A DNA stretch of 22,286 nucleotides from a virus. Below are positions 1-22,286 of the stretch, piece by piece; the stretch's first letter is position 1; each line of letters starts with the position of its first letter. The stretch is taken from IMG/VR virus record IMGVR_UViG_3300028394_001408, positions 1 to 22,286 of that record; one strand, written 5' to 3'. Both the position numbers and the translations under genes were made by a program. A model generated the notes under the pieces. It made no database searches. It saw nothing but the letters and a program-made list of their open reading frames with translations, and had not been told where the DNA came from.

Positions 1-18
1 TCTAAAAACGAAAAAAAC

Positions 19-429
19 TTATTTTTTATCTTTTGGATTATCATAATCGTCTTTCACTATGTTATACGTTGTTTTGAACTTGTCAAAAGCAATGGCTAAT
101 CCGGGATATTCCTTACACATTTTTTCAATTCGATTAATATCTGGCATACAGTCTACAAACTCTTCGTTCTTCCAACTAAACGTTGAGGCATTAATATTGC
201 CAATAGTATATGTGCCACCCATAGCAGTTCCAGCACTGCCGCTACCAGTAATAGTGTAATTGGATGTGCTTCCGTTAACTGTTATTATATTTGAAGATGC
301 CATAGTGTCATACGCATTGCTTGTTAGCGTAATTGTATCAGGAAAAAATGTAGTAATTTCCTGTGCTATAAACCCAACATCATTACTTGATGTTGTTGAG
401 CAATCCAGTGGCGCTGAAGAATCGTTCAT
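19..429 (-). CDS. Ser/Thr/Gly-rich conserved phage protein, function unknown
   Basis: A 136-residue protein of unknown function. The open frame runs further upstream, but I chose the ATG at 427-429 because AAGGGA lies 5 nt before it and the extra upstream residues are only the antisense-like extension over the glycosyltransferase gene. Residues 1 to about 90 are rich in Ser, Thr, Gly and Asn with short beta-like repeats, as seen in fibre or virion surface proteins. The last 45 residues change character: they are charged, with a segment DINRIEKMCKEYPGLAIAF and a basic end. I associate this C-terminal segment with T4-like marine phage proteins, from memory only. It overlaps the end of the glycosyltransferase gene by 47 bases. 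A virion role is inference; no catalytic motif is visible. Confidence 0.7.
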   Translation of the reverse strand: MNDSSAPLDCSTTSSNDVGFIAQEITTFFPDTITLTSNAYDTMASSNIITVNGSTSNYTITGSGSAGTAMGGTYTIGNINASTFSWKNEEFVDCMPDINRIEKMCKEYPGLAIAFDKFKTTYNIVKDDYDNPKDKK

Positions 430-1480
430 GTAAATCCCTTGCTTGTTTATGTACAGTAGGAACAAACTTTTTATAGTTTTCCATAAACTGAATAATTTTA
501 TTACACAAGTCTGGACGATAAACAGTGTACGAATCAAAACTTTCTGTCCATGTACTTGGATATTTGAATGTGTCGTAATACATTTCTGTGTAACTGAGTC
601 TATCTGGAACCATGGGAATAGCATCTACTACAGCACCCTCGTAACAACTAATACCTAGGGTTTCTTGTAAGTTAGCACTAAACACAATCTTAGCCTCACC
701 TAACAAATTATGATATTCATTTTTTGTTAAGAACTGATCTTGACATACAACAAATTCATATTGTGGTAAGTGTTCTTTTAAATCTCTAAAGATCTCAACT
801 TGTTTTTCTGGAGCAATACGATGAGGGAAAAGAATAAGATCACGCTTGGGCATGTTCTTATACATGGTCAATGTATCTTGCATATACTCCATGGGCCAGC
901 CTGTACGTACAATCCTTGGTTCTTCACCGTTTAGAATTTCTTCTAAATGTTCGCTGTACCAAGGATTCTCTGTAGGATAATCATTTAGTAAATTTGTATA
1001 GAACATTTTGATATGAAAGTCTGTGGCAAAGTAGTTGTGATCAAATGCGTGAAAGAAACTCTTCTCTGCATTGCGTACCCAAGGCTTATTGCCAACTAGT
1101 CGACCTAAAAAGTCTTGTGGATCATAACTGCCAGCATGCCATAAGCCATGTGTAGTTACTGGAATGCCCAGCAACTCACTCATATACTTTAAGTTTATGA
1201 TGCCCGGATGCCAAGCATCAGTAAAAATAAAATGATCGCCAGCCTTGACGGATCCTGCACAAAAAAGTCTTCCAAGCTGTTCAACTTGGCTTGCCTTATA
1301 GATATTAGTGCCCCCAAAATTGAGAAATGCACCAGGAGTAGTGGCGCTAGGAATATCGCTAGGACCCGATACAATGTGAACTTCATGGCCTGCCTTTCGT
1401 AAGAGTTCAGGTACATGAGTCTTCCACTGACCCGTGTACCTTGTCTCAACTGATTCTAAATCAACTAAGAAAACGTTCAT
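383..1480 (-). CDS. GT-B fold glycosyltransferase (family 1/4-like)
   Basis: A 365-residue retaining-type glycosyltransferase with the two-lobed GT-B layout. The N-terminal lobe begins MNVFLVDLESVETRY and contains a GHEVHIVSGPSD strand-turn; the C-terminal lobe contains FPHRIAPEKQVEIF (the R..PEK nucleotide-sugar region) and QETLGISCYEG, which fits the E-x7-E motif of retaining GT-B enzymes. It should transfer a sugar from a nucleotide-sugar donor; the acceptor cannot be read from the sequence. Start chosen at 1480, where ATG overlaps the TAA of the preceding gene (TAATG); an upstream Met at 1564 lies inside that gene in another frame and gives a Gln/Arg-rich, non-family extension. The location in a unit with DpdA and sugar-type oxidoreductases makes modified DNA a possible acceptor, but a host or virion glycan is equally open. 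Confidence 0.88.
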   Translation of the reverse strand: MNVFLVDLESVETRYTGQWKTHVPELLRKAGHEVHIVSGPSDIPSATTPGAFLNFGGTNIYKASQVEQLGRLFCAGSVKAGDHFIFTDAWHPGIINLKYMSELLGIPVTTHGLWHAGSYDPQDFLGRLVGNKPWVRNAEKSFFHAFDHNYFATDFHIKMFYTNLLNDYPTENPWYSEHLEEILNGEEPRIVRTGWPMEYMQDTLTMYKNMPKRDLILFPHRIAPEKQVEIFRDLKEHLPQYEFVVCQDQFLTKNEYHNLLGEAKIVFSANLQETLGISCYEGAVVDAIPMVPDRLSYTEMYYDTFKYPSTWTESFDSYTVYRPDLCNKIIQFMENYKKFVPTVHKQARDLHERFFSATGLLNNIK

Positions 1481-1716
1481 TAATCTCTGAACCTTGGCTT
1501 GTTGTTGAACGAGCCGTTGTGTCTTGGCTTGTTGCCTTGATAAGGCTTGCGCTCTCCGTTCCATTGTTTCTTAGGACGCTTACTGTATTCAAAGTCACGC
1601 CAAATTTGGCTTTCCTTATTGTACAAGTCAGTCGGACTAAAGGGTTTAAGTTCAATCCTGCAAAAATCTAGCAGGGCCTCAAGGTCATCAAAAATCCTAA
1701 CGACTTCTTGTTTCAT
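1480..1716 (-). CDS. Small conserved phage protein with basic Asn/Arg-rich tail
   Basis: A 78-residue protein of unknown function. The first half (MKQEVVRIFDDLEALLDFCR and the following ELKPFSPTDLYNK) looks like a short helical domain. The second half, from about residue 47, is a disordered-looking basic tail rich in Arg, Lys, Asn, Gly and aromatic residues (KPYQGNKPRHNGSFNNKPRF), the composition of RNA- or DNA-binding tails. AAGGAAA precedes the ATG, but part of it can pair into a small hairpin (see 1717-1729). Its TAA overlaps the ATG of the glycosyltransferase gene by one base, so the two are probably translationally coupled. The N-terminal half looks like a protein I associate with T4-like cyanophages; a nucleic-acid-binding role is inference. 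Confidence 0.75.
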   Translation of the reverse strand: MKQEVVRIFDDLEALLDFCRIELKPFSPTDLYNKESQIWRDFEYSKRPKKQWNGERKPYQGNKPRHNGSFNNKPRFRD

Positions 1717-1729
1717 AGGAATATTTCCT
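1717..1729 (-). promoter_or_regulatory. Small hairpin covering the ribosome binding site
   Basis: On the mRNA strand AGGAAATATTCCT lies directly before the ATG at 1716. AGGAA can pair with UUCCU (5 bp, 3-nt loop), which would hide the Shine-Dalgarno AAGGAA of the small basic protein. The pairing is seen in the sequence; a regulatory effect is inference, and a 3-nt loop with a short AU-rich stem is only marginally stable. Confidence 0.3.
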
Positions 1730-1733
1730 TATT

Positions 1734-2129
1734 TTAATATTTGATAAAACTACCATTTTCTCCGTCTTCGGAGATCTCAATCCAAATCTCGCGACTTGGA
1801 TACTTTTGTGAAATCTGTTGATATAAATCTTCAGACATCATTTCACAACTCTTGTAGTCAAGGCTCAAAACGGAACCTTGACCATTATACAGCGATTCAA
1901 GCCATCGTTTGAACTGGATGAACTCGATGTCCCGATCATCGTGTTGCACATTGATCCACACCCTGAAATGAAAGATGTGGCGATGAGGATAACCCAAAAA
2001 TGATACGTCATATTCGTCTCCAGTGGCCAAGTTAGGATTTGTAAGGGCCGCTGGATATTTATGTATGCCTTCTTTGCGGAAGGTAACCCATATCATTTTA
2101 ACTGGTCGAATGTCTTGTCTAATAATCAT
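1734..2129 (-). CDS. Putative QueD/6-pyruvoyl-tetrahydropterin-synthase-fold protein
   Basis: A 131-residue protein. Read against the QueD/6-PTPS pattern it aligns along its length: F-R-K-E-G-I-H-K-Y-P matches the first zinc His region (F..AAHRLP), PHRHIFHFRVWINV matches the HGH zinc motif and its strand, RDIEFIQFKRWLES matches the 'G.iiDF..LK' segment, MSEDLYQQI matches 'PTSE.LA.wi', and IWIEISEDGENG matches the strand bearing the catalytic Glu. The catalytic Cys expected 4 residues before HxH is absent, and the 'LDH' position reads LDY, so the classic reaction is doubtful. Start taken at 2129, where ATGA overlaps the preceding stop; an ATG at 2096 is the alternative. Its presence in the DpdA unit supports a 7-deazaguanine link. 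The assignment rests on manual alignment; marine T4-like phages carry similar proteins of unknown function. Confidence 0.5.
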   Translation of the reverse strand: MIIRQDIRPVKMIWVTFRKEGIHKYPAALTNPNLATGDEYDVSFLGYPHRHIFHFRVWINVQHDDRDIEFIQFKRWLESLYNGQGSVLSLDYKSCEMMSEDLYQQISQKYPSREIWIEISEDGENGSFIKY

Positions 2130-2644
2130 AGTTTTGTATCTTGTGTATATTGATCCCAATGTGTATACTTGTCCATACGCATTAAGTCATGTAGTTGATG
2201 TGTCCATACACCAGGATTTGTAGAACCCCAAGTACGGTCGTCTAGTTTAAGTGTTGTATTATAATTAAATTGATTAATGTAAGGCAATTTTACACTAATC
2301 ATCGGAACAAATTTATGATTTTCAGTAAGGCCGCTTTCAAGTAGTCCTTCCGCTTGCGCTACATCTAAATCCAATGTACACCAGTAGTCAGCGTCTAAAC
2401 ATGATCTAATCATAAGTTCCCAAGGCCGCCACTTTTCACCATCGTTAATGCCAATGTTGGGAAAACTTTGACTAGTCCCAAAGTAAATTTGTTGTACTTT
2501 GTGTTCCTTGGCCAATAACAATATTTGATCCACGGGCTGTACGCCTACAACAAATAGTGTAAACATGTTATAGCATACAGTATGCTCAACTTCGTAGCCT
2601 GTAAAAAAATTAACTTCTTGACGTTGTTGTGTATCTAGTCCCAT
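2126..2644 (-). CDS. Conserved T4-like phage protein, function unknown
   Basis: A 172-residue protein that I recognise only as a type of hypothetical protein found in marine T4-like phages. It begins MGLDTQQRQEVNFFTGYEVE, has a hydrophobic strand (TLFVVGVQPVDQIL) and a YFGTSQSF turn typical of an alpha/beta domain, then ends with STNPGVWTHQLHDLM and a charged tail. There are no Cys clusters, signal peptide or membrane segment, and no catalytic motif I can name. It overlaps the upstream dehydrogenase gene by 10 bases and shares an ATGA overlap with the downstream QueD-like gene, so these products are probably made together. A partner role for either neighbour is inference. Confidence 0.75.
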   Translation of the reverse strand: MGLDTQQRQEVNFFTGYEVEHTVCYNMFTLFVVGVQPVDQILLLAKEHKVQQIYFGTSQSFPNIGINDGEKWRPWELMIRSCLDADYWCTLDLDVAQAEGLLESGLTENHKFVPMISVKLPYINQFNYNTTLKLDDRTWGSTNPGVWTHQLHDLMRMDKYTHWDQYTQDTKL

Positions 2645-3513
2645 TTAATATAACCTCTACTGTAACCATTTGGACGATCCGCACCATCCGCAAATGCTTG
2701 TTGCCATTCAGTGTTACGATTATAACACCTTGTCCAGAAAGAATCAACTTCAAGATAGCCGTTTTCAATCATCCATACTGCATCTTTCATACACTGATGA
2801 AAATTTGGATTGCGTGGACTTGGTTTAATAGTAGTTGTAGCTTTCCAAAGTTGTTGCTGTGCTTCTTCCCTACTTACTGCCTTGCCAACTGCATCAACGA
2901 TTAAGGCGTTGTTATTTAGGTTTATGTCTATACCTAACGCATATTTGCCACTCAAGTCAATAACCACATCATAACTTTCAGTAGTACCAAGTAACAATCG
3001 ATCGCCCCACAGATCAATATTACTTGACCCTACCACATCAACACGTTCACAATGTTTAAATTTGGTCAATGTATGATAGGCCACCCACGCTAGAAATCCA
3101 CTGCCAATAATCAGTATTTTATCTTTTCTAGAACAATCCGCAACATCCACAGCATTAATGCCACAAGCAACTGGCTCGATAATATAACGTGGATGAGCTT
3201 CGGGTACAAAAACATATTCATCTGCACGTACATTGTATATGTCTGCGTATGCAGGTTCTCCTCTTGTTGCAACATAATCGCCAAAGTTTACATTAGTAAT
3301 GTTGGCACCAATACCAATTACTTGGCCCAGTCCTTCGTGACCTTGCATACCTAGTGGTAACGGACCAAAGTTACCTTGCATCATATCAATGTCACTGCGA
3401 CACACGCCGGTCATAACAGCACGAACACAAATTTCATCTTCAGTTAACGGAGGAATATCGTATGTTACTTGTTCAAAGTAACCTTGCCCAGTTGTTTGCA
3501 AACATCTTGTCAT
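2635..3513 (-). CDS. Zinc-type medium-chain dehydrogenase (alcohol/polyol dehydrogenase-like)
   Basis: A 292-residue member of the medium-chain dehydrogenase/reductase family, which oxidises or reduces alcohols, polyols or sugars with NAD(P). The GroES-like domain carries the catalytic zinc ligands Cys38 (GVCRSDIDMMQG) and His59-Glu60 (GHEGLGQVIGIG), then GDYVATRG and IIEPVACG. The Rossmann segment KILIIGSGFLAWVA has Ala where the third Gly of GxGxxG is usual. The four-Cys structural zinc lobe is missing and the protein is about 50 residues shorter than typical members (about 340), mostly in the cofactor domain. The ATG overlaps the TGA of the Gfo/Idh/MocA gene (ATGA), so the two enzymes are coupled. 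In bacteria a zinc dehydrogenase and a Gfo/Idh/MocA domain also occur fused as 'bi-domain oxidoreductases' near surface-polysaccharide genes; a sugar-type substrate is inferred from that. Confidence 0.85.
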   Translation of the reverse strand: MTRCLQTTGQGYFEQVTYDIPPLTEDEICVRAVMTGVCRSDIDMMQGNFGPLPLGMQGHEGLGQVIGIGANITNVNFGDYVATRGEPAYADIYNVRADEYVFVPEAHPRYIIEPVACGINAVDVADCSRKDKILIIGSGFLAWVAYHTLTKFKHCERVDVVGSSNIDLWGDRLLLGTTESYDVVIDLSGKYALGIDINLNNNALIVDAVGKAVSREEAQQQLWKATTTIKPSPRNPNFHQCMKDAVWMIENGYLEVDSFWTRCYNRNTEWQQAFADGADRPNGYSRGYIKWD

Positions 3514-4394
3514 AGTTTTTCAATCACAGTGTGTATCCAAGTGTCTTGTTCGTATTGATCTGTCCAGAATTTAGCATCGTCAACACGTTCAACTGCTTCT
3601 TTGATCATGGCTTGATAGGCTTCTTCAGGGCACCATCCTAGTTCAAAACGTTCTGCACTGTTATCCAGCGTGATAAATTCAATAGAACTGTCTTCAGTAT
3701 CCATACTGCGCCAATTGGCCGCACAGGTCCATTTATCAGTAAAGTTAATAACGCATACGTCGTCAACGTCATACGTACCTTTGGGATTAACAGTACCATA
3801 ATCAGTGCTGTCAATGTCCTCCAACTTCCATGCGGCCAGTGTAGTTGTTCCGTTGACTATATCTGCTCTCCAGTGCGGGTTCATGGCAATATATAGACTT
3901 AGCAAATGCGGCATCAAGTCACGACTAACGCCGCCGAACGCTAACTTCTTAGTAGTAAACCAACTACCAGGACTGGGAATACAATTTTTACGTATCCATT
4001 TAATTTTTACGGTTTTGGCTTGACTGGCTAACATTTTTAACTCAGCAATATTACTGCGCCACATGTTGTTTTTAACCATCATGAAGCGTGTATACTTAAA
4101 TGTTTCTATTAAAATATTCCAACTGTTACTATCGGCTACTCCAGGTTTTTCAATAAACACAATTTTGCTAACTGGTGCTACTTTTGCGGCAATTTCAAAG
4201 TGTGTGAAATTTGGAGTGCATATATGCACAGTATCAAACGGTGCATATACTAATATAGCCGCATCAACACTTGGCAACATTGCACCTTTGCTAGTGTCGT
4301 GGTCTACTGTAATAACTTCATGGCCAAGTTTTTCTAGTACAGTTTTATACAACTGTCCAATACCCATGCCAATAACTAGACTACGCTTGCTCAT
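3510..4394 (-). CDS. Gfo/Idh/MocA-family oxidoreductase
   Basis: A 294-residue NAD(P)-dependent oxidoreductase of the glucose-fructose oxidoreductase / inositol dehydrogenase family. The N-terminal Rossmann fold starts SLVIGMGIGQLY, followed by DTVHICTPNFTH and the family signature EKP (residues 82-84, in VFIEKPGVAD), whose Lys contacts cofactor and substrate. The C-terminal alpha/beta domain contains FGGVSRDLMPHLL, matching the usual 'GG...D...H' active-site region. Family members act on sugars, inositols or nucleotide-sugars. It is 40-60 residues shorter than common relatives. It is translationally coupled to the downstream zinc dehydrogenase (ATGA) and overlaps the upstream small gene by 14 bases. 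The substrate cannot be read from the sequence. Confidence 0.87.
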   Translation of the reverse strand: MSKRSLVIGMGIGQLYKTVLEKLGHEVITVDHDTSKGAMLPSVDAAILVYAPFDTVHICTPNFTHFEIAAKVAPVSKIVFIEKPGVADSNSWNILIETFKYTRFMMVKNNMWRSNIAELKMLASQAKTVKIKWIRKNCIPSPGSWFTTKKLAFGGVSRDLMPHLLSLYIAMNPHWRADIVNGTTTLAAWKLEDIDSTDYGTVNPKGTYDVDDVCVINFTDKWTCAANWRSMDTEDSSIEFITLDNSAERFELGWCPEEAYQAMIKEAVERVDDAKFWTDQYEQDTWIHTVIEKL

Positions 4395-4626
4395 TTTTCT
4401 TTTCTTCGTATTTTTTAAACATACGAGTCACATCTTCCATACGTTGCTGGAATATATGCGGAGCATTTTCAGCCGCACGAATCATGTCAGATTCACTAGG
4501 ATAGTGGCGTAAACAATATCTTGCACCATCTTTAATTGTTTTTGGAACTCGAGGAGTAGACAGGATCTCAAGTAAAAACTTTTGAGTCTGTACTACTGCT
4601 CGATATCTTTCATCAGGTAATGTCAT
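4381..4626 (-). CDS. BPSL0761-like small protein
   Basis: An 81-residue protein of unknown function. It begins MTLPDERYRAVVQTQKFLLE and carries ARYCLRHYPS, a pattern I associate with the BPSL0761 family of small bacterial and phage proteins (roughly 'DERtrAv..tr.FL.el' then 'LRHYPs'). The sequence looks all-helical, ending in a charged stretch. The start is the ATG at 4624-4626; the frame extends two codons to a TTG that I did not use. It overlaps the DpdA gene by 14 bases upstream and the Gfo/Idh/MocA gene by 14 bases downstream. The family name is from memory and gives no function. Confidence 0.7.
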   Translation of the reverse strand: MTLPDERYRAVVQTQKFLLEILSTPRVPKTIKDGARYCLRHYPSESDMIRAAENAPHIFQQRMEDVTRMFKKYEEKKNEQA

Positions 4627-6178
4627 TTTCAACTTCTATTTCTAGTTGATCAAGTTTATTAATTTCGTCTTCACTGAACTCTTCAGTGTGTTCTTTCTCT
4701 AATTGTACACTGGTAGTACCCACTTCGTCAAACAAATTGGCAAATTGACTATGTGCATTAATGGCTTTCTTACCACTGGCGCCACGTGTACCAATAACTC
4801 GATTCCAAAAGAATCGAAACTCGTCAATGACTTTTAATGCAGTGCCTTTGTCGCTTGTGGCGAATAATGCTTCAACAATGTCTTTAAAGAATATTTGATC
4901 AAAACGCTCATCAACTAGCATATTTGGACAACAACCGTTATCATATTGACGATTAGCTTCTTGTACAGCGTTCAAATGCATCCAAACATTATGACCCATC
5001 ATAATACCATAACTAAAACTATCCCAACTGGTTTTGTTAATCTGACCAAATTTATTTTTATCATTTGGTCCGTAAATACAAATTTCGTTAAGTTTAATTT
5101 GATCAATAATAGGACTAGTGTCAAAATATTTTAAAATGCGGTCTTGTATAACTGCATCTTTATACAGTCGTGTATCGTTAGCATACTTTTTATCGTCTGC
5201 ACTAGATGTCATTCTATATGTCCACTTTTTACGATCTTCTGTTTCAGTTTGAACGTAAATTTGACCATTAGCAGTTGCTAGGAACGGACTTGCACAGTCA
5301 AAGCTGACGCTAAAATTTTCATTGTGATATTTGCGTACAGCACGTTGAATATCTGTTAGTAGCACAGCCCACTCTAATTTACTTGTACCAAGAAAGTGCA
5401 TCCAGTCTTGATGTCCTTTTTCTAATAAGCCGTCAAATCTCAGTTCAACTAAACGTCTTAGCACAAGTTCAATATCACACATGTTCTGGCCACCCATCCC
5501 CCATCCATTAAATGCACGATCACCATATTGTTTAGGGTCACAATATTTTTTCATACGATCATACCAGTCATCAGCTTGGTCATGCCGTTCGCCTTGTAAC
5601 ACATTTAAGAACTTACAGTTACCATTGCGATTGTTAACAAAATAATCATTGTTAATATATGTTCCGTTGACTGCATCTGCATAACTACCAATGCCAATCA
5701 GTTTAGGACTTTCTGGATTTTTAGCAGTCCAACTGGGAATATCAAGACACATACCATAATCCATTAACGTGTCCATCCAAGCAAGAACTTGTTTACGTTT
5801 TTTCATTGCTCTTGGGCAATTGGGATTTTTCCAGTCACCGGTCCACTTGCCTTTACCAATTTGGAATCCACCTGAGTCACCCAATACCCAACTTGTGTTA
5901 CGATCTCTATTACGGAACATGTCTTCTTTAGGATCAAATTTAGTAAGGTCCAAATTTGCATGACCAGCACTATACAAACACCAGTGATAGTAAAATGCAC
6001 CTTTGTCCGGATCTAGATAGTTTAAACTTTCTGCCCCGTGTGCAAACGATGCTGGGATTCTACTTGGATCAACGTAGTTAAAATGTCTTTGTTTACCTAC
6101 AAACGTAGAGTAAAAAGTAGACGTTGCCGGTAAAAATTTGGCATAGTCACTTTGAGTGGCAGTTAAGTTCCGGTTCAT
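4613..6178 (-). CDS. dpdA: DpdA-like tRNA-guanine-transglycosylase-fold DNA 7-deazaguanine transglycosylase
   Basis: A 521-residue TGT-fold protein. TGT enzymes swap guanine for a 7-deazaguanine base in tRNA; the DpdA branch does so in DNA. Visible motifs in order: LGDSGGFQIGKG with Asp101 matching the first catalytic Asp (DSGGFQ), YGMCLDIPSW with Asp146 in the base pocket region, NVLQGERHD (QG motif), GWGMGGQN (GG loop), HFLGTSK, and SVSFDCASPF with Asp294 matching the nucleophile (MFDC..PTR), then MGHNVWMHL matching the TGT 'HN' helix. The CxCxxC zinc site of tRNA TGT is not recognisable; only CIYGPND is near. The protein is about 140 residues longer than bacterial TGT and ends in an acidic tail. 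ATG overlaps the clamp stop (TAATG). DpdA fits better than tRNA TGT because of the length, divergence and phage context. Confidence 0.82.
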   Translation of the reverse strand: MNRNLTATQSDYAKFLPATSTFYSTFVGKQRHFNYVDPSRIPASFAHGAESLNYLDPDKGAFYYHWCLYSAGHANLDLTKFDPKEDMFRNRDRNTSWVLGDSGGFQIGKGKWTGDWKNPNCPRAMKKRKQVLAWMDTLMDYGMCLDIPSWTAKNPESPKLIGIGSYADAVNGTYINNDYFVNNRNGNCKFLNVLQGERHDQADDWYDRMKKYCDPKQYGDRAFNGWGMGGQNMCDIELVLRRLVELRFDGLLEKGHQDWMHFLGTSKLEWAVLLTDIQRAVRKYHNENFSVSFDCASPFLATANGQIYVQTETEDRKKWTYRMTSSADDKKYANDTRLYKDAVIQDRILKYFDTSPIIDQIKLNEICIYGPNDKNKFGQINKTSWDSFSYGIMMGHNVWMHLNAVQEANRQYDNGCCPNMLVDERFDQIFFKDIVEALFATSDKGTALKVIDEFRFFWNRVIGTRGASGKKAINAHSQFANLFDEVGTTSVQLEKEHTEEFSEDEINKLDQLEIEVENDIT

Positions 6179-6909
6179 TATTTGCTTTGTGCTGGAAGAA
6201 TATAGTTGTATTCTGTAATACCACTATCTACAGTGATTTGCATAGCGCCTTGATCACTGATACGCATGGTTGCAGTTCCAGCTAATCCAAGGATACTGAT
6301 AACTTGATTAACGGGCCACATCCATGAGTGCTTTAGTTTGCCACCAACATCGTGTTGGAACACAAACGATCCAGCATGTGTGCTTGCATCACCAAAGAAA
6401 AATACCAAATTTCCGTCTTCTGTTTTAACTTGGAACACTTGTTCTTCAGAGTGTACTTGTGCTTGAAGTTTCAATCTAGCAATGGATGCAAGCGAAGGTT
6501 CAAATTCAATGTCCCATCCATTGCCTTTAAACTTAACACTCTTAAGTTTCTCGTTAATAACTTCAGTACTCATAAAACGATAATCGTTTACAAAGTCACT
6601 TGTTGTATTTTCAAAATGCAAACTTGTTGGAATCTCTGCACCGTTACGTGTAGATTTAATAACATTGATCTTTGCATTTTCTTTGTACTCTGGGTTTTTT
6701 AAATGCAATGCTAATTTATCCAAGTTAGGCATGCCAAAAACACCACTGAACTCATTTACTGGTGAGTGTGTTTTAGCATTAAGAATAACGCTACGGTCTT
6801 CTGCCATTGCCTCAATAGTTGTTGCCAACTCTTCTCCTGTGACCTTAACAGTACTCAAAAAGCCCAAACTGTGTGTATGTGTTACGATGTCTTGTAAAAT
6901 GTCTTTCAT
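6178..6909 (-). CDS. 45: DNA polymerase sliding clamp (gp45-like)
   Basis: A 243-residue protein read as the trimeric processivity clamp of a T4-type replisome. T4 gp45 is 228 residues and made of two similar beta-alpha-beta domains. Here the first domain has VNEFSGVFGMPNLDKLALHL, comparable to the gp45 'DFDVAIYDLNGFLGIL' segment. The second has FEPSLASIARLKLQA, a strand-rich middle (NLVFFFGDAS), a helix (WPVNQVISILG) and the final strand ITEYNYILPAQSK, a typical clamp ending. The start has a strong AAGGAG 6 nt upstream and a perfect sigma70-like promoter just before it. It sits downstream of the polymerase gene, and the polymerase ends in a clamp-binding-like peptide. Overall identity to gp45 looks low, so the call rests on strand order and context. 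Confidence 0.78.
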   Translation of the reverse strand: MKDILQDIVTHTHSLGFLSTVKVTGEELATTIEAMAEDRSVILNAKTHSPVNEFSGVFGMPNLDKLALHLKNPEYKENAKINVIKSTRNGAEIPTSLHFENTTSDFVNDYRFMSTEVINEKLKSVKFKGNGWDIEFEPSLASIARLKLQAQVHSEEQVFQVKTEDGNLVFFFGDASTHAGSFVFQHDVGGKLKHSWMWPVNQVISILGLAGTATMRISDQGAMQITVDSGITEYNYILPAQSK

Positions 6910-6926
6910 AATTATCTCCTTGTTGT

Positions 6927-6955
6927 ATTATAAGTTAGTTTTTACTGTGTGTCAA
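6927..6955 (-). promoter_or_regulatory. Sigma70-type promoter for the clamp/dpdA unit
   Basis: On the minus strand TTGACA (6950-6955) and TATAAT (6927-6932) are both exact consensus with a 17-bp spacer. Transcription would start near 6920, only about 10 nt before the clamp ATG, and the ribosome binding site AAGGAG (6916-6921) would be at the very 5' end of the transcript. The -35 box lies in the last codons of the radical SAM gene. It resembles the promoter at 12229-12257 and is likely read by the host polymerase early in infection. Confidence 0.72.
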
Positions 6956-8432
6956 CTGTTTGTTCAAGTAATCTTATCAAAGGATCATAATATTCTTTGA
7001 TAGGATCGTTAATACATCCTGTTGTTTTAATTGAAGGCGATTTTTTACGATATTTTTCAATTTTAGCATTTAATTCAACAGTTAAGTCAACCGCTTGCTT
7101 AAAATTGTTAATATCAGTATTGTCATCTTTTGTCCAAAAATATGGTTGTTTCATATCAGGTATTTGATAACCATATTTTTGATAATTTAAATCCATATCA
7201 CTCCTATTGTAATTAGGAGATATATCAGACATTGGGTTTAATATTAGTGGGATTGTGTGTAGTTTTGTAATTGGACAGTTGTCTTGAATACACCACTCTA
7301 CAGTATCTCTAACACTTTTTGAATCTTCTCCTGGAAGTCCAACAATATATCCAGCGTCAACCCATACATCATCTTTCCATGCTTCACGCATTTTCCAAAG
7401 AGTTTCTTTTCTTTTTTCTGCTGGCATTCCCTTACCGATGGCTTTAGATGCAACTGGATGAAATGAATCAACACCAATCCATGTAGAATATAATCCTATT
7501 TGTGTTAACAGTTCAATTTGTTCTAAATTTATAGCAATTACATCTAGTCTAGTATAAGCTCTAAGTGATAATTTAAATGGCAGTTTGTTGGTAACTTCTG
7601 CAATGTGTTCTAATTTTGTAGTGGAATCATTTAAAGTGTCATCAGAAACCCAGTAATTAGTTACACCCCATTGGTCATAATTACTCATAAATTCTTTATA
7701 TAAGACATCTTTGTCTTTAATATACTGAGAAATATCTTTTTTACCAATTAACGGATACGAACAAAAGCTACATTTAAATCTACACCCTCTTGTGAATTCA
7801 ATGTTCATTACTTCATTGGGTTTTATAAAATCTGTTTTTTGATAGTTTGTTTGACTTAATTTAAAATCCCAAGTTGGACCAGCTGCCGCTGTATTGTGTT
7901 TAATAACTTTAGGCCATATTCTTTTTTTAGTTTTAAAACTATCCAATAATTCTATAATTTGAACTTCACTGAGACCAGCCATGAAATAATCTACTGGTGC
8001 ATCAGCATAGTCATCAATTTTGTGTCCACCTACTATTGTTTTAATATTTGGGTTTATATTCTTAGCAACATCTATCCATTGATTTAAATTATTGGTCATA
8101 GCATCGTATATTAATCCTTTATTTGGAAACACATCATCAATAGTAGTAGTTGATGCAAAGTCTAACAATCTAGAAGCACGTTTGCTATTTGTAAATGGGG
8201 TTCTGTAAGGCCACCAAGTAGTGCTAAATCCTATTAGTAAAGTATCACTACCTACAGCTGAATTACATATTTTTCTCCAATACTCTAGACTTAGCTCACT
8301 ACTAAAGTCTAATACTAAACAACTATACCCGTTATCTTTTAAATGACTGGCCAAACGATAACATCCGTATCCACGCATCCATACAGGGTATGAAGTTGTA
8401 TCTGAAAATAATATAACGTTATATCCGTTCAT
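6942..8432 (-). CDS. Radical SAM protein with B12-binding-like N-terminal domain
   Basis: A 496-residue radical SAM enzyme. The iron-sulfur cluster motif is TRGCRFKCSFC with Cys217, Cys221 and Cys224 (CxxxCxxC). The N-terminal 170 residues look like the cobalamin-binding-type Rossmann domain found before many radical SAM cores: a first strand with NGYSCLVLDF, IGFSTTWWPY, then TIVGGHKI and VDYFMAGLSEV, the usual 'VGG..vd.vv.GegE' region with the GEGE end altered. After the cluster come WVSDDTLNDS, LSLRAYTRLD and YIVGLPGED, matching later strands of the SAM barrel. Substrate unknown; it is far too large and different to be QueE. It overlaps the upstream sugar dehydrogenase gene by 14 bases. It could act on a sugar, a modified base or a peptide; nothing in the sequence decides. 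Confidence 0.87.
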   Translation of the reverse strand: MNGYNVILFSDTTSYPVWMRGYGCYRLASHLKDNGYSCLVLDFSSELSLEYWRKICNSAVGSDTLLIGFSTTWWPYRTPFTNSKRASRLLDFASTTTIDDVFPNKGLIYDAMTNNLNQWIDVAKNINPNIKTIVGGHKIDDYADAPVDYFMAGLSEVQIIELLDSFKTKKRIWPKVIKHNTAAAGPTWDFKLSQTNYQKTDFIKPNEVMNIEFTRGCRFKCSFCSYPLIGKKDISQYIKDKDVLYKEFMSNYDQWGVTNYWVSDDTLNDSTTKLEHIAEVTNKLPFKLSLRAYTRLDVIAINLEQIELLTQIGLYSTWIGVDSFHPVASKAIGKGMPAEKRKETLWKMREAWKDDVWVDAGYIVGLPGEDSKSVRDTVEWCIQDNCPITKLHTIPLILNPMSDISPNYNRSDMDLNYQKYGYQIPDMKQPYFWTKDDNTDINNFKQAVDLTVELNAKIEKYRKKSPSIKTTGCINDPIKEYYDPLIRLLEQTVDTQ

Positions 8433-9198
8433 TAGTTTTTATCATATTATTGTATTCAATTGCTGTTTCTAATAAATCAAAACTTTGATTAATTGATTGT
8501 GCATATTGAACAAATGCCAATGTATCTTTAGGGAAGCAATGCCCACCCCATCCTCTTTCACCATCAATACCTGGCACCATACTGTGACTAGTACCAATCC
8601 TTACATCCTGACATACTAGATGTCTTACTACTTCAAAATCTTGCCCAGTTGTTTCACACAAGTCATACAAGTGATTAAAGAATGAAACTTTAATAGCAAG
8701 AAAACTATTAGTAGCATATTTGACCATTGCGGCTTCTTCTGGCGTACACTTGTGTATAACTTTTAAATTGACCAGTGAGTCTTTAAAAAGTAAATGCCAA
8801 AAGTTAGCCGGATCATCTCCACCAATAATCATATACTTTTGAATGGCAAAATCCTCAACAGCTGACTTTGCCCTTAAAAATTCTGGACTAAACACAATAC
8901 TATGGTCTGGATATTTTTCTAAAACATCTTTTAGTAAATTGGGACTAATAGTACTTTTTATTAAAATAGGCATAAAAATTGGCACTTGATCAATTACATT
9001 AACGATATTGCTAATGTCACAATTGCCAGAATCATCACTTGGTGTGTTAACGCAAATAACAATTCCGTCAGCATCAATGTGTTGTGCAACAGTAACTTCA
9101 GTGTATTTAGGATCAACGACAATAATCTCGTTTTTATTTTCTAAAGCACCTTTGACTGCTTTACCAACATAGCCGTAACCTGCTACAATTATCTTCAT
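8419..9198 (-). CDS. Truncated UDP-glucose/GDP-mannose dehydrogenase-like protein
   Basis: A 259-residue nucleotide-sugar dehydrogenase homologue. The NAD-binding motif is GYGYVG (residues 7-12); VICVNTPSDD and SPEFLRAKSA match the family 'v.vpTP' and 'PEFLreGsA' segments; Lys160 and Asn164 lie in the central helix; GWGGHCFPKDT holds the catalytic Cys221. The enzyme would oxidise the 6-hydroxyl of a UDP- or GDP-sugar to a uronate. The chain stops about 30 residues after the catalytic motif, so the third domain, which completes the nucleotide-sugar site in the usual 390-450-residue enzymes, is absent. Start chosen at 9198, one base after the polymerase stop (TAATATG); the upstream Met lies inside the polymerase gene. 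No frameshift remnant of the third domain is visible downstream, where the radical SAM gene begins at once. Confidence 0.85.
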   Translation of the reverse strand: MKIIVAGYGYVGKAVKGALENKNEIIVVDPKYTEVTVAQHIDADGIVICVNTPSDDSGNCDISNIVNVIDQVPIFMPILIKSTISPNLLKDVLEKYPDHSIVFSPEFLRAKSAVEDFAIQKYMIIGGDDPANFWHLLFKDSLVNLKVIHKCTPEEAAMVKYATNSFLAIKVSFFNHLYDLCETTGQDFEVVRHLVCQDVRIGTSHSMVPGIDGERGWGGHCFPKDTLAFVQYAQSINQSFDLLETAIEYNNMIKTNERI

Positions 9199-9199
9199 A

Positions 9200-11866
9200 T
9201 TAGAATTCAAACAGTTTATTAAACGTGTTTTTCTCCTCGGTACTCTTAATGTCCCAATCCAACACACCAATCAAGTTGTCCAGTTTGTTGTCAATAATTG
9301 TTTGCTCCATCTCAGTGTGGTCAAATGGTAAATCTTTAAACCATTGTGGCAAACGCAATTCATCAACTGGATATGCCACACTGGTAAATGCCATTGGATT
9401 ATCTTTAATTTTACATACAATAACTTTAGCACCATCAGTAATGTTGGCACTGTATTTGTCATCATACATACGCTTGAGCGTGTTCCAGTTAATACTTGCT
9501 CTAACGTGTCCAGGCAAGTTTGCTTTGCCAGCCTTGCGTTCTTTTTCTTGATATTCAGTAATGTTGTTGGCACGTTTAGGCGAACCTTTTTCCCAACCTG
9601 GTCTTGCTTTGAATTCAGTTCTAAATGCAGTAATATGCTCTAACACTTCTTTCTCAGTTGCACCAGTTAGTACTTTCTCCAATACATCACTTAAAAAGTT
9701 TTGTATAAATTCTGGAGTATCACTGCGTTTAAGGTCAAGTCCCATGGCTTTGATCTTGCCTGGCTTACCATCTACGTCACTGCGTTTGCCTTCTTTATCA
9801 TAATACAGCACAGCATAACGTTTCTTAGTAATAAACAAACCTTTACTTGCAACAATTTCACGACCAGCTTTAATAACCTCGCCGCGTGTTTTTGGACAGT
9901 GAAAACTGTCCGACATAAACTGTGGAAACGTATTGTTAACTTCAGATGCAATTTGATCATACAGTTGTACTACGGTTTCTTTCGTCCACGGAATCGCTCC
10001 CGAGTCGATATCTTTTTTAAGCGTCTTATAAGCACTAAAATAACAACTATCGGTATCACCATATATAATAGCTTTTCCCACATGATTATATTCTCCAGTA
10101 ACAATTTCATTGACCTTAGATGCCATGTGCTTGCAAATTGTACGTCCAGTTAGAGTAGTACTTTGACCAATACGATTATCAAAGAATCTACAACCAGGAT
10201 TAAGAATAGCACCATACAAACTGTTCAAGTTAATCTTCTTGACTAGTTGACGTTTGTCCCAGTATTCTTCTTCAATTTTATTTCCAGCATTAATGGCGTC
10301 TTTGAGTTTGGCCTGCATTTCTTTACGTTCTTTATACCAACGTGCAAGAAGTCCAGGGATAACGCCTTCTGTATTATGTGTAAAGATTGTGCCGTTAGCA
10401 CTGAGCATCCAAGGTTGATTGCTTTCAAATATAAGCCTGTATACCTCTGCGCTACTTAGTACGTCATTATCTCCATTTTCCCAATCAATAACAATCTCTG
10501 TGCCAACTTCTTTGTTCATTACACTGGTATATTCTAATGCGGCAAATATACCTTCCCATGAACCAGCAAACGATTTACCTTTGGCAATTAAGCCTTGTAT
10601 ATGGTCATTGGTCATTGTTTGACGTAATTGTCCAACGATAGTTTCTGGACCCATGTTAAGCGCACGAATTGCTGACGGATACAAGCTGTTAATGTCCAAT
10701 GATCCAATCCAATCTTGTAGACCTTCTTTTGGATGTGCAACATATGCACCAGCCGCTTGATTCTCTTCACGTTCACTCATCTTAGTTCGACTTGGAACAA
10801 CCATGCCTCTACGATGTGCTTCATTAATAATGGCCTGTTCAGTTACAGCCACAGCACCCATTGTGGTCTGTAGTAGCACAGTATTTTCATGTGCTAGTGT
10901 GTTGGCTAGATCCAAAAACTTTAGTTTCTTATCCAGTCTATCCAACAGTGACGTATCTTGTCTGTTGTATTCAATAAATGTTTTAAAATCATTATTGTAT
11001 AATTGATCCAACGTGCCTTCGTATTGTGTTTTTCGTTCACCCAGTTCATATTCGGCAATGGCATCCAGTCTATATGTATGACGTTCTTCATATGTGTATC
11101 TGCGATACAACTCCAAACTGTCCAAGTGTACACGACCCACAAAGTCATATGTTACACTTTGACGCCCAAACTTTTCATACTCACGGCGTTTGGGGAATTG
11201 ATTGAACAAACAAAAACGTCTAGTATCGTCTTTGCTCAATACCTTAGTAACACGATTAACTGTATAGGGAATATCATAACCTTCGCTGTTCCAACCAGTT
11301 AGTATATCTGCATCTTGTATGAGATCCAAAAACGCATCCAACATTTCACCTTCTGTTTTAAACAGCATGGTGTTGGGAAAGTCTTTAATTTCTTCTTGGG
11401 CCTGTTCCCATGTTAATGTCTTTGGAGGAACAGCAAAACACACTAGGGTTTCCAACCACTGTAAGTGTACGGCAATACTGGTAATTGGCATGAACGCATC
11501 GTCGGGTGTACTATAACCACGTTCAGGGTCAAAGTCTACCTCAATGTCGAAAAACGCCACATTTAGTTTTGGGGGATCTGCGTTAACGTAATTTTCACTC
11601 AAACACACAAACACTTGGTTAATGTCTGCTTCATAAATCTTTTTGTTTGAGTGTATCTTTAGTTCTTTGTGAAAGTCTTTTTGTGTTTTACATACAACTT
11701 TGCTAACAGGGTTGCCGTAAATACTTGTGTGCTTGCCCTTTTGGTCGTCATAGTAAAAGGTGTAGCGAGCCGGAATATCTCTAAATACCCGTTCGCCTTT
11801 CTTGTTGCGTTCAACCACACGAACCATATCATTGGCGCGGTCAAACCATGCGTCTACATAACTCAT
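9200..11866 (-). CDS. 43: Family B DNA polymerase, T4 gp43 type
   Basis: An 888-residue replicative polymerase with 3'-5' exonuclease, close to T4 gp43 in length (898). Exonuclease motifs: Exo I FFDIEVDF (Asp107, Glu109), Exo II NSEGYDIPY (Asp198), Exo III YNRQDTSLLDR (Asp304). Polymerase motifs: A, SLDINSLYPSAI (Asp391); B, KKINLNSLYGAI (543-554); C, YGDTDSCYFS (Asp604, Asp606). All catalytic acids are present, so both activities should work. The C-terminus NTFNKLFEF resembles the clamp-binding tail of T4-type polymerases. Good ribosome binding site (TGGAG, 5 nt before ATG). Just upstream is a hairpin like the gp43 translational operator. The gene follows the DsbA-like gene after about 80 bases and is probably read from the same promoter. 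Confidence 0.97.
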   Translation of the reverse strand: MSYVDAWFDRANDMVRVVERNKKGERVFRDIPARYTFYYDDQKGKHTSIYGNPVSKVVCKTQKDFHKELKIHSNKKIYEADINQVFVCLSENYVNADPPKLNVAFFDIEVDFDPERGYSTPDDAFMPITSIAVHLQWLETLVCFAVPPKTLTWEQAQEEIKDFPNTMLFKTEGEMLDAFLDLIQDADILTGWNSEGYDIPYTVNRVTKVLSKDDTRRFCLFNQFPKRREYEKFGRQSVTYDFVGRVHLDSLELYRRYTYEERHTYRLDAIAEYELGERKTQYEGTLDQLYNNDFKTFIEYNRQDTSLLDRLDKKLKFLDLANTLAHENTVLLQTTMGAVAVTEQAIINEAHRRGMVVPSRTKMSEREENQAAGAYVAHPKEGLQDWIGSLDINSLYPSAIRALNMGPETIVGQLRQTMTNDHIQGLIAKGKSFAGSWEGIFAALEYTSVMNKEVGTEIVIDWENGDNDVLSSAEVYRLIFESNQPWMLSANGTIFTHNTEGVIPGLLARWYKERKEMQAKLKDAINAGNKIEEEYWDKRQLVKKINLNSLYGAILNPGCRFFDNRIGQSTTLTGRTICKHMASKVNEIVTGEYNHVGKAIIYGDTDSCYFSAYKTLKKDIDSGAIPWTKETVVQLYDQIASEVNNTFPQFMSDSFHCPKTRGEVIKAGREIVASKGLFITKKRYAVLYYDKEGKRSDVDGKPGKIKAMGLDLKRSDTPEFIQNFLSDVLEKVLTGATEKEVLEHITAFRTEFKARPGWEKGSPKRANNITEYQEKERKAGKANLPGHVRASINWNTLKRMYDDKYSANITDGAKVIVCKIKDNPMAFTSVAYPVDELRLPQWFKDLPFDHTEMEQTIIDNKLDNLIGVLDWDIKSTEEKNTFNKLFEF

Positions 11867-11878
11867 TTATTCTCCATA

Positions 11879-11896
11879 TGCAATTTACGGCTTGCA
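11879..11896 (-). promoter_or_regulatory. Hairpin next to polymerase RBS, possible gp43-type translational operator
   Basis: In the mRNA, UGCAA-GCCGUAAA-UUGCA forms a perfect 5-bp stem with an 8-nt loop, three bases before the UGGAG ribosome binding site of the DNA polymerase gene. T4/RB69 gp43 represses its own translation by binding a hairpin with a 5-bp stem and 8-nt loop at the same place. The geometry is seen directly; the loop sequence differs from the T4 AAUAACUC, so binding by this polymerase is inference. Confidence 0.5.
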
Positions 11897-11946
11897 AATA
11901 CCATCTTTGCTGTTTGTGGCCAGCGTACCCTACTCAGTTAATGTAT

Positions 11947-12204
11947 TTAGATTTTTTTGGTAATATCTAAAATTGCTTCAATCTCAGCCCAATCTTCATT
12001 GTGGGAACTCCAGTCACCTTTATGTGCGATTTTAATTGCACGGTTAATAATACTGGTTTTGATATTCAATTCTTCTGCAACTGCCTTAACAGTTTCTTTC
12101 AAACCTTCTTGCAAGTCTTCAACTTCACGCAATACTGTTGAGCCTTCGTTGATTAATCTTTCCAATTTTGCCTTTTCTTCTGCACCGTAGCTACGTCCTG
12201 ACAT
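11947..12204 (-). CDS. dsbA: DsbA-like small double-stranded DNA-binding protein
   Basis: An 85-residue protein comparable to T4 DsbA (89 residues), a small DNA-binding protein reported to act at late promoters. It is predicted helical: an acidic/basic N-terminal part (MSGRSYGAEEKAKLERLINE), a middle helix ETVKAVAEELNIKTSIINRA and AIKIAHKGDW, and an acidic C-terminal helix. The middle matches the order seen in T4 DsbA (a helix, 'eLgv....fnrll.lyHK', then an acidic helix). It is the first gene after a perfect consensus promoter and has AGGAG 5 nt before its ATG, so it should be made early and strongly. It is not the disulfide oxidoreductase of the same name: there is no CxxC. Confidence 0.68.
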   Translation of the reverse strand: MSGRSYGAEEKAKLERLINEGSTVLREVEDLQEGLKETVKAVAEELNIKTSIINRAIKIAHKGDWSSHNEDWAEIEAILDITKKI

Positions 12205-12228
12205 GTAAGTCTCCTAATGTATAAGCCT

Positions 12229-12257
12229 ATTATATACTAATTATCTGTTTGTGTCAA
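12229..12257 (-). promoter_or_regulatory. Sigma70-type promoter for dsbA-like/polymerase unit
   Basis: On the minus strand TTGACA (12252-12257) and TATAAT (12229-12234) are exact consensus with a 17-bp spacer. The start would be near 12222, giving a leader of about 18 nt that includes the TAGGAGAC ribosome binding site. It lies immediately after the terminator that ends the late unit, so it begins a separate transcription unit. Its layout is the same as that of the clamp promoter. Confidence 0.8.
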
Positions 12258-21921: not shown

Positions 21922-22286
21922 TTAGTTTCCTTGAGTTGAATCTTCGAGTTCAGTTTCATGTTCTACAACTTGTACCTTTTGAGGTTTTACTTTTTTAGTT
22001 AAAGTAATTGCATCGTTTTCAACGCCAATCATTAGCAATCCGCCGTCTTTCAAATCTCCAAACAGCATCATACGACTTAGCGGTCTCTTAATCAATTGAT
22101 CAATAGTACGTTGCAATGGTCTTGCGCCCATTTTGCTATCAAAGCCCTTCTTGACAAGCAAGTTAATTGCCTCGCTACTAATCTTAATTTTAATACCTTT
22201 GTCTTTAACTTGAATACTTAGTTCAGAAATAAACTTGTTGACAATTTTTACCATTGTTTCTTTGCCAAGTTTCTTAAATGTTACAA
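21922..22286 (-). CDS. clpA: ClpA-type AAA+ unfoldase, C-terminal part (partial, runs off window)
   Basis: Only the last 120 or so residues are in the window. The frame stays open past the first Met at 22254 to the window end, reading VTFKKLGKETMVKIVNKFIS, so the gene continues to the right. The sequence matches the small C-terminal subdomain of the second AAA+ module of ClpA: FKKLGKE..VKIVNKFI, GFDSKMGARPLQRTIDQLI with the GARPL..R sensor-2 Arg region, and PLSRMMLFGDLKDGG. The chain ends in an acidic tail. Such unfoldases feed proteins to ClpP or remodel them. The ATPase motifs and ClpP-binding loop lie outside the window, so partner and activity cannot be judged. Confidence 0.85.
   Translation of the reverse strand, partial: VTFKKLGKETMVKIVNKFISELSIQVKDKGIKIKISSEAINLLVKKGFDSKMGARPLQRTIDQLIKRPLSRMMLFGDLKDGGLLMIGVENDAITLTKKVKPQKVQVVEHETELEDSTQGN

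Follow-up and report, generated by a model that had tools for sequence, protein, structure and literature searches.

What keeps a base-exchange enzyme on the DNA that it modifies? The question is raised by two adjoining genes of a phage of environmental origin, the IMG/VR virus record IMGVR_UViG_3300028394_001408, the whole of which (22,286 bases, called the window here) was analysed. On the minus strand, the gene for a 243-residue sliding clamp of the PCNA/gp45 fold (positions 6178–6909) is followed by that for a 521-residue protein (4613–6178), a predicted DpdA-like DNA-guanine transglycosylase. With a probability of roughly 0.6, we read this protein as an enzyme of a new DpdA subgroup that exchanges bases in DNA while tethered to the clamp, both the clamp binding and the exchange being predictions. 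What was computed is the fold, the conservation of the catalytic residues, the clade, the linkage to other genes and a shared motif; base exchange on DNA, clamp binding, coupling to replication and protection are what we infer from them.

The sequence of the 521-residue protein has no family match in Pfam, PHROGs, NCBIfam or PADLOC (hmmscan), and searches of the PDB with the protein and with its profile gave no match either. Its AlphaFold2 model (predicted local distance difference test score (pLDDT) of 80.5, built from 46 sequences) resembles tRNA-guanine transglycosylase (TGT). The 14 best Foldseek matches in the PDB are all TGTs, and VIA aligns 305 residues of the model with a TGT (Z of 18.9, root-mean-square deviation of 4.7). 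A search of viral models returned, as its best match, a 596-residue protein, a length equal to that of the homologue in Vibrio phage 2.275.O (Vibrio 2.275). Next came phage proteins that are uncharacterised, a 'tRNA guanine transglycosylase' of Motura and a protein of Vibrio phage nt-1. An earlier note on this DNA, made from its letters alone, had proposed a TGT fold with both catalytic aspartates in place. The structure model now backs the fold, and the two residues align with those of Escherichia coli Tgt: Asp101 in GDSGGFQ (codon 5876–5878, minus strand) with the general acid/base D89, and Asp294 in FDCASP (codon 5297–5299, minus strand) with the nucleophile D264. Both are aligned in the 11 printed rows and invariant in 46/46 rows of alignment A4 and in 14/14 of A1. 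Together with these two, D146, Q195 and G230 align with D143, Q187 and G214 of E. coli Tgt; printed rows that depart from this have Ser (PA5oct) or His (nt-1) in place of Q187 and Asp (pf16) in place of G214. The motifs DSGG, D146, QG and FD follow one another in the same order as in TGT and DpdA2.

Profile comparison places the family closest to DpdA2. Against six DpdA2 proteins, hhalign gives a score of 72.0 (E value of 1.4e-8), with 21.1 as the best of 40 column shuffles; against five TGTs the score is 35.5 (shuffle best 28.3), and against six DpdA1 proteins it is 23.4 (E value of 0.03–0.05), near the shuffle level of 22.7. One Flavobacterium DpdA of 264 residues matches the family at an E value of 0.004. 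A 24-row tree resolves the enzyme family (13 members; 100/100), DpdA2 (6; 95/96) and TGT (5; 100/100) as one clade each; long branches were flagged, and the deep order of the tree is not firm. The enzyme is not nested with the DpdA2 of nt-1 and has no match to phrog_10773 at an E value of 0.001. Because of the profile comparison and the separate clades, we call the enzyme DpdA-like and assign it to neither DpdA1 nor DpdA2. A clade of its own agrees with the distinct subgroup suggested in the earlier note, and the enzyme stands apart from the five TGTs, grouping with which was the outcome that the note had named as refuting its proposal.

Genes for the supply of a 7-deazaguanine lie beyond the window. 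An 18,242-base contig (its locus here being L002) is 100% identical to window positions 1–12241 and extends past the low end of the window. Beyond window position 1 it encodes FolE (L002:15168–15938; PF01227, 131 bits against a cut-off of 27) and QueE (L002:16797–17648; TIGR03365 at an E value of 1e-16, below the model cut-off). By eye, this QueE has CxxxC and then some 40 residues to the next Cys (GCDSYASW), unlike the CxxxCxxC arrangement. Where 9.5 kb or more of downstream sequence is available (27 loci), FolE is present in 27, QueE in 26 and both in 26. Searches of whole records found FolE in 14/16, QueE in 15/17 and QueD in 7/16. In Vibrio 2.275, QueF-like, YhhQ-like, QueC and FolE genes follow the dpdA homologue in one run, with an amidoligase-like gene between. 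That gene (L083:11723–12835) lies directly after the dpdA homologue and matches PF12224 at an E value of 1.8e-4, just under cut-off. The earlier note had called for a search for folE, queC, queD and queE, which was borne out on the same virus for FolE and QueE and, across records, in part for QueD and in a single record above cut-off for QueC. A TGT-like protein is linked to 7-deazaguanine synthesis genes, as expected of a DpdA in the broad sense. The DpdA-like identity first proposed from the letters is supported by the fold and the catalytic residues, by the relation to DpdA2, by the presence of FolE and QueE in the same virus and by the run of genes beside the Vibrio 2.275 homologue.

These phages probably make 7-carboxy-7-deazaguanine (CDG) with their own or the host's QueD, and CDG itself may be the final base, or else one of its derivatives or preQ0 made by way of host QueC. 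Modification in DpdA2 phages has chemical backing. The DNA of nt-1 is reported to contain dPreQ0 (PMC6884629), and in phage 6E351A a reported 15% of deoxyguanosine (dG) is modified, consistent with dPreQ1 (PMC12028318); such bases are reported to shield DNA from restriction (PMC6884629). Two further genes stand between dpdA and folE in the contig, a phosphoribosyltransferase of the xanthine/hypoxanthine type (L002:13276–13767) and a HIT gene (L002:13952–14320); of 88 loci, 38 have a match to the first and 29 to the second. The phosphoribosyltransferase could salvage guanine released by base exchange.

A peptide common to the enzyme and the phage polymerase may connect base exchange to the clamp. 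The sequence QFANLFDEV (residues 478–486; 4721–4747, minus strand) is a putative clamp-docking peptide located in a stretch (residues 465–500) modelled with pLDDT below 50. The same motif forms the C terminus, NTFNKLFEF (9203–9229, minus strand), of the 888-residue family B DNA polymerase (9200–11866, minus strand; PF00136; phrog_262 at an E value of 2e-203). With the pattern [FY]xx[LF]F[DEG] applied to the last 75 residues, the motif is found in 83/83 close DpdA proteins, 4/406 other open reading frames (ORFs) and 68/8300 shuffled tails. At the polymerase C terminus, FxxLF[DE] is present in 77/78 close homologues; the exception is at locus L004, where another ORF (5992–7110) ends in FxxLF[DE]. 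More telling than these counts of close homologues are pairs from distant phages, matched by eye: polymerase NNTDLFDW and DpdA NNNDLFGW in Vibrio 2.275, HFDSLFGW and SFNSLFDV in PA5oct, and PSLDDLFE and TTLDELFE in the DpdA2 phage ACP17. Two further DpdA2 C termini bear the motif, those of X1 (SLEELFG) and Moby (SLDDLFG). That the tail of a DpdA carries FxxLF[D/E] resembling the C terminus of the phage polymerase is new here, and the peptide joins the clamp link that had been drawn earlier from gene overlap.

The clamp itself gave a model with a pLDDT of 93, and VIA aligns 225 of its 243 residues to PCNA (Z of 18.1, root-mean-square deviation of 3.2), which backs the earlier clamp label with a two-domain PCNA fold. 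The homologue in Sinorhizobium phage Phosso is annotated 'DNA polymerase III sliding clamp beta' (hhalign E value of 1e-41), and a search of the PDB with the clamp profile gave three chance-level matches only. In order of transcription, the minus strand carries the family B DNA polymerase, a UDP-glucose dehydrogenase-like gene, a radical-SAM gene, the clamp and the 521-residue protein. The clamp and dpdA genes meet at GCAAATAATGAAC, a TAATG (6176–6180, minus strand) in which one base is common to the stop TAA and the start ATG, so that both reading frames and their overlap are as first described. By BLAST, 85/88 loci have a clamp upstream, with no more than 1,397 bases between its stop and dpdA. 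In 38 of the 85 (those with a placeable clamp stop) the one-base overlap recurs, and in the remaining 47 the gap is 0 to 1,397 bases, often with a small ORF between. The three loci without an upstream clamp are L053, with 226 bases of upstream sequence, and the Phosso-like L089 and L090. Among distant relatives, the clamp homologue lies one gene before the dpdA homologue in PA5oct (36% identity) and two genes before it in Vibrio 2.275 (32%).

A sigma-70 consensus promoter, exact as TTGACA-N17-TATAAT (6927–6955, minus strand), sits 17 bases before the clamp ATG. Two exact copies occur in the window, both on the minus strand, against 0.012 expected from base composition on both strands. A match (0–2 mismatches of 12, spacing 15–19) is found upstream of the clamp in 81 of 83 regions, a set that includes the window and many near-copies; the rate in shuffled upstream regions is 7.1%. 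This had been called a perfect early promoter: the consensus is indeed exact and conserved, and early timing may be presumed.

DpdA1 proteins show a second motif of this kind. Their C termini carry Q-x(1-2)-L-[FW] (e.g. QPELF, QDLF or QRLF) in 9/10, against 0/291 background ORFs, with Typha as the exception. The pattern was noticed in a set of six of the ten, and the four added later all have it. These ends are like the beta-clamp motif QL(S/D)LF, as reported in PMC9690074. An annotated clamp gene lies within 1.4 kb of the DpdA1 gene in 9/10: the two overlap by one base in VpKK5, Me-ZS1 and ply2008005c, are 8 bases apart in 9g and lie within 1.4 kb of each other in Iggy, CA8, RHEph04, Dp-1 and ZHS. 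The Typha stretch, 3.7 kb long, has no clamp.

The strongest alternative, which we consider unlikely though still worth weighing, is DpdA-like base exchange without clamp binding: dpdA would merely sit in a replication operon, and the FxxLF tail would have another role or be due to chance. The findings that follow count against the preferred reading, and those on Phosso, on the surroundings of the DpdA2 genes and on conservation in the tail also favour this alternative. Phosso keeps the enzyme away from its clamp and without the motif; its polymerase ends in TTFNDLFTF and its DpdA in IVEGLF, and the DpdA proteins of Phosso, L089 and L090 (C termini IVEGLF and GGIFS) all lack the motif. Only three of six DpdA2 C termini show it clearly, those of pf16, KVP40 and nt-1 being without it, and the DpdA2 genes examined belong to preQ0 clusters or are close to one, the six stretches having no annotated clamp. 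Other parts of the tail are equally conserved. The tail pattern was relaxed after inspection, a stricter first form applied to a mis-set tail start having given 61/88, and the 83 DpdA proteins are close homologues and not independent. Of the five distant rows outside the 83, only PA5oct matches, the other four being Vibrio 2.275, Phosso, L089 and L090; for Vibrio 2.275, therefore, the likeness to its polymerase is a judgement by eye on a sequence that fails the regular expression. The DpdA1 motif is absent from the ends of all seven polymerases listed for DpdA1 phages. In nt-1, modification is reported at only 0.1% of G (PMC12028318), which is not suggestive of efficient replication-coupled writing there. 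On the side of the enzyme, the Foldseek TM-scores of the model against TGTs are low (0.32–0.41 by query), and on the side of the base, QueC was matched in two of 16 records and over cut-off in one (Vibrio 2.275), so that a complete base pathway is not shown. The second match, in G011, is weak (E value of 1e-5; 20 bits against a cut-off of 22), and PA5oct and Phosso, deposited as complete genomes, have no QueC match; IMG/VR records may be fragments. Against an unbound enzyme stand the matching polymerase and DpdA peptides inside single phages, the presence of the motif in only about 1% of other ORFs, and DpdA1, in which a different, beta-clamp-like motif goes with a dpdA next to or near another type of clamp. 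On this evidence the clamp-tethered enzyme is the reading that we prefer.

Phosso gene 439 ('virion structural protein', before dpdA) was considered as a clamp and rejected, having no similarity to the clamp; the Phosso clamp is gene 221. In the window, the tail (4640–4792, minus strand) also contains a conserved GTRGxxGKK (residues 463–471) and a helix (residues 500–513) with F501, L509 and L512.

An inactive or otherwise specialised TGT-fold protein, for instance one that binds DNA as a clamp accessory or exchanges some other base, would accord with the missing sequence-family match and with a QueC over cut-off in one of 16 records, but the catalytic residues are invariant across the family and FolE and QueE are linked to it, and we regard this as very improbable. 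Least probable is a tRNA-guanine transglycosylase acting on phage or host tRNA, for although fold and catalytic Asp pair are those of TGT, this identity was rejected on the clade separate from five TGTs (100/100) and on the PF01702 model, which matches 0/16 records and 14/14 controls, and it is further opposed by the absence of CxCxxC and by a closest profile relative, DpdA2, with dPreQ0 reported in the DNA of its member phage nt-1 (PMC6884629).

The zinc site is a less simple matter than the earlier note supposed in writing that the enzyme lacks one. A pattern check found CxCxxC neither in the enzyme nor in any of the 13 members of its family, which upholds the statement for that motif. Cys367 (codon 5078–5080, minus strand) and His396 (4991–4993, minus strand; both sets of coordinates counted manually from the start of the ORF), on the other hand, align with two of the four ligands of E. 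coli Tgt, the third zinc Cys, C307, and the zinc His, H333. Cys367 is kept in 46/46 rows of A4 and 14/14 of A1, and His396 in 46/46 and 13/14, with Gln in Vibrio 2.275. The three printed DpdA2 rows have Cys at the first position in one and His at the second in none. The alignment here is without DpdA1 and remote in this region, so the half site is a lead; E365, D386 and H401, near Cys367 and His396, are candidates for completing a metal site. Loss of the site had also been put forward as the mark of a subgroup. Because the DpdA1 (6/6) and DpdA2 (6/6) proteins examined lack CxCxxC as well, as does the Flavobacterium DpdA, that proposal was rejected; the enzyme family keeps two ligand positions, and the printed DpdA2 rows at most one. 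CxCxxC is present in 4/5 TGTs, the fifth (L130) having none by that pattern.

How the preferred, clamp-tethered enzyme might work can be outlined. FolE, QueD and QueE would make a 7-deazaguanine, finished as a CDG-type base or turned into preQ0 by host QueC. To judge from fold and residues, Asp294 would attack C1' of deoxyguanosine, guanine would leave and the free 7-deazaguanine would enter, in the double displacement of TGT. The peptide in the flexible tail, like the end of the polymerase, could park the enzyme on the phage sliding clamp. Exchange would then take place behind the fork, with new phage DNA modified while it is made, and the modified DNA would be shielded from restriction. Riding on the clamp may be the way in which such an enzyme of a phage locates phage DNA and keeps pace with it, an idea that can be tested.

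A wider proposal, to which we give about even odds, is that phage DpdA enzymes are often replisome parts and that modification is written behind the fork and not on finished genomes. On this view, members of three classes would bear a docking peptide suited to the type of clamp in their own phage, and two of the classes also keep dpdA beside or near the clamp, in opposite gene orders. As part of the same proposal, the peptides would be FxxLF[D/E] or LDxLF for gp45-like clamps and Q-x(1-2)-L-F for beta-type clamps. If true, it would agree with a difference reported for 9g, in whose DNA as much as 27% of dG is replaced, against 0.3% of G in plasmids from which dpdA alone is expressed (PMC6884629); a limiting base supply would explain that difference too. 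It would also agree with the 0.1% reported for nt-1, whose DpdA2 is without the motif. A link between DpdA and the clamp was not found proposed in the literature searched, largely without full texts and with subscription journals mostly outside it, and a term search of the Hutinet and EC151 papers did not find the word 'clamp'.

In viral_contigs (IMG/VR), a query pattern picked out 530 stretches, 519 of them with a gene for a relative of the enzyme, and the best 80 were kept; a search there with the PA5oct and Vibrio 2.275 proteins gave no match. Out of 50,697 phage records, a homologue occurs in 13, those of eleven Pseudomonas phages of the PA5oct/Paride type, of Phosso and of Vibrio 2.275, and in all 13 it is labelled 'hypothetical protein'. 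In genome_contigs five contigs match. For DpdA1 and DpdA2, searches gave 226 and 70 records, respectively. One locus (L126; PBPT01000016.1, 335 kb), in a Neomarinimicrobiota metagenome-assembled genome, shows the same arrangement of genes for polymerase, clamp, DpdA, FolE and QueE and is probably a binned jumbo phage. Term searches of three papers on the PA5oct group (PMC10761892, PMC11079468 and PMC6892783) found no mention of this modification, the MIJ3 paper having none of the terms looked for, and the literature search found 'PA5oct' and 'queuosine' together in no paper. A jumbo-phage review (PMC13282480) mentions predicted deazaguanine incorporation in general terms. With this family, DpdA gains a large subgroup to which the family models searched here are blind.

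Other features of the locus can be noted. A second exact TTGACA-N17-TATAAT (12229–12257, minus strand) lies upstream of an 85-residue ORF (11947–12204) and the polymerase. The radical-SAM gene (6942–8432, minus strand), between the UDP-glucose dehydrogenase and the clamp, is matched only in the window, L002 and L009 (3/88 loci) and itself matches the PADLOC candidate model PDC-M51A (E value of 5e-13). An ORF at the window edge (21922–22254, minus strand) matches the ClpB C-terminal D2-small domain (PF10431, E value of 2e-22). A further ring of TGT-like proteins occurs in Pseudomonas putida phages such as Voja-6 (L134:6905–8275) and in Vibrio GR7B (L135:6614–8230); these have Lys-rich C termini without the motif and no annotated clamp within 7 kb.

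The enzyme can be compared with several known systems. It is like tRNA TGT (bacterial, archaeal and human) in its TIM-barrel fold (Z up to 18.9), both catalytic Asp residues and the Q195 and G230 positions, and unlike it in a CxCxxC site reduced to Cys367 and His396, a long tail and a separate clade. With DpdA1 of the phage 9g type it shares a phage 7-deazaguanine setting, a nearby clamp gene, a clamp-like C-terminal motif and the lack of CxCxxC (six tested), but the profile match is no better than near the shuffle level, the DpdA1 gene order is dpdA, clamp, polymerase (family A where annotated), and clamp annotation and motif type differ. DpdA2, compared here as that of Vibrio phage nt-1 (YP_008125322) with relatives in KVP40, pf16, ACP17, X1 and Moby, has the same motif order and catalytic residues, a location near FolE and Que genes, no CxCxxC and, in 3/6 C termini, a similar LF peptide. 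The enzyme differs from it in sequence (16–17% identity to the two compared), in a clamp-linked locus and in keeping the Cys367 and His396 positions; KVP40 and pf16 DpdA2 match phrog_10773, which the Vibrio 2.275 homologue matches only at an E value of 0.13. A parallel for the tail is in T4, where, according to PMC2988020, the polymerase, gp55 and gp33 have common hydrophobic-acidic C termini that are interchangeable, and an internal copy works. As with these gp43, gp55 and gp33 clamp epitopes, a short hydrophobic-acidic peptide is found here in the polymerase and in another, putative, clamp client; unlike in T4, that second client is a DNA-modifying enzyme, and the motif in the window starts 43 residues from the C terminus.

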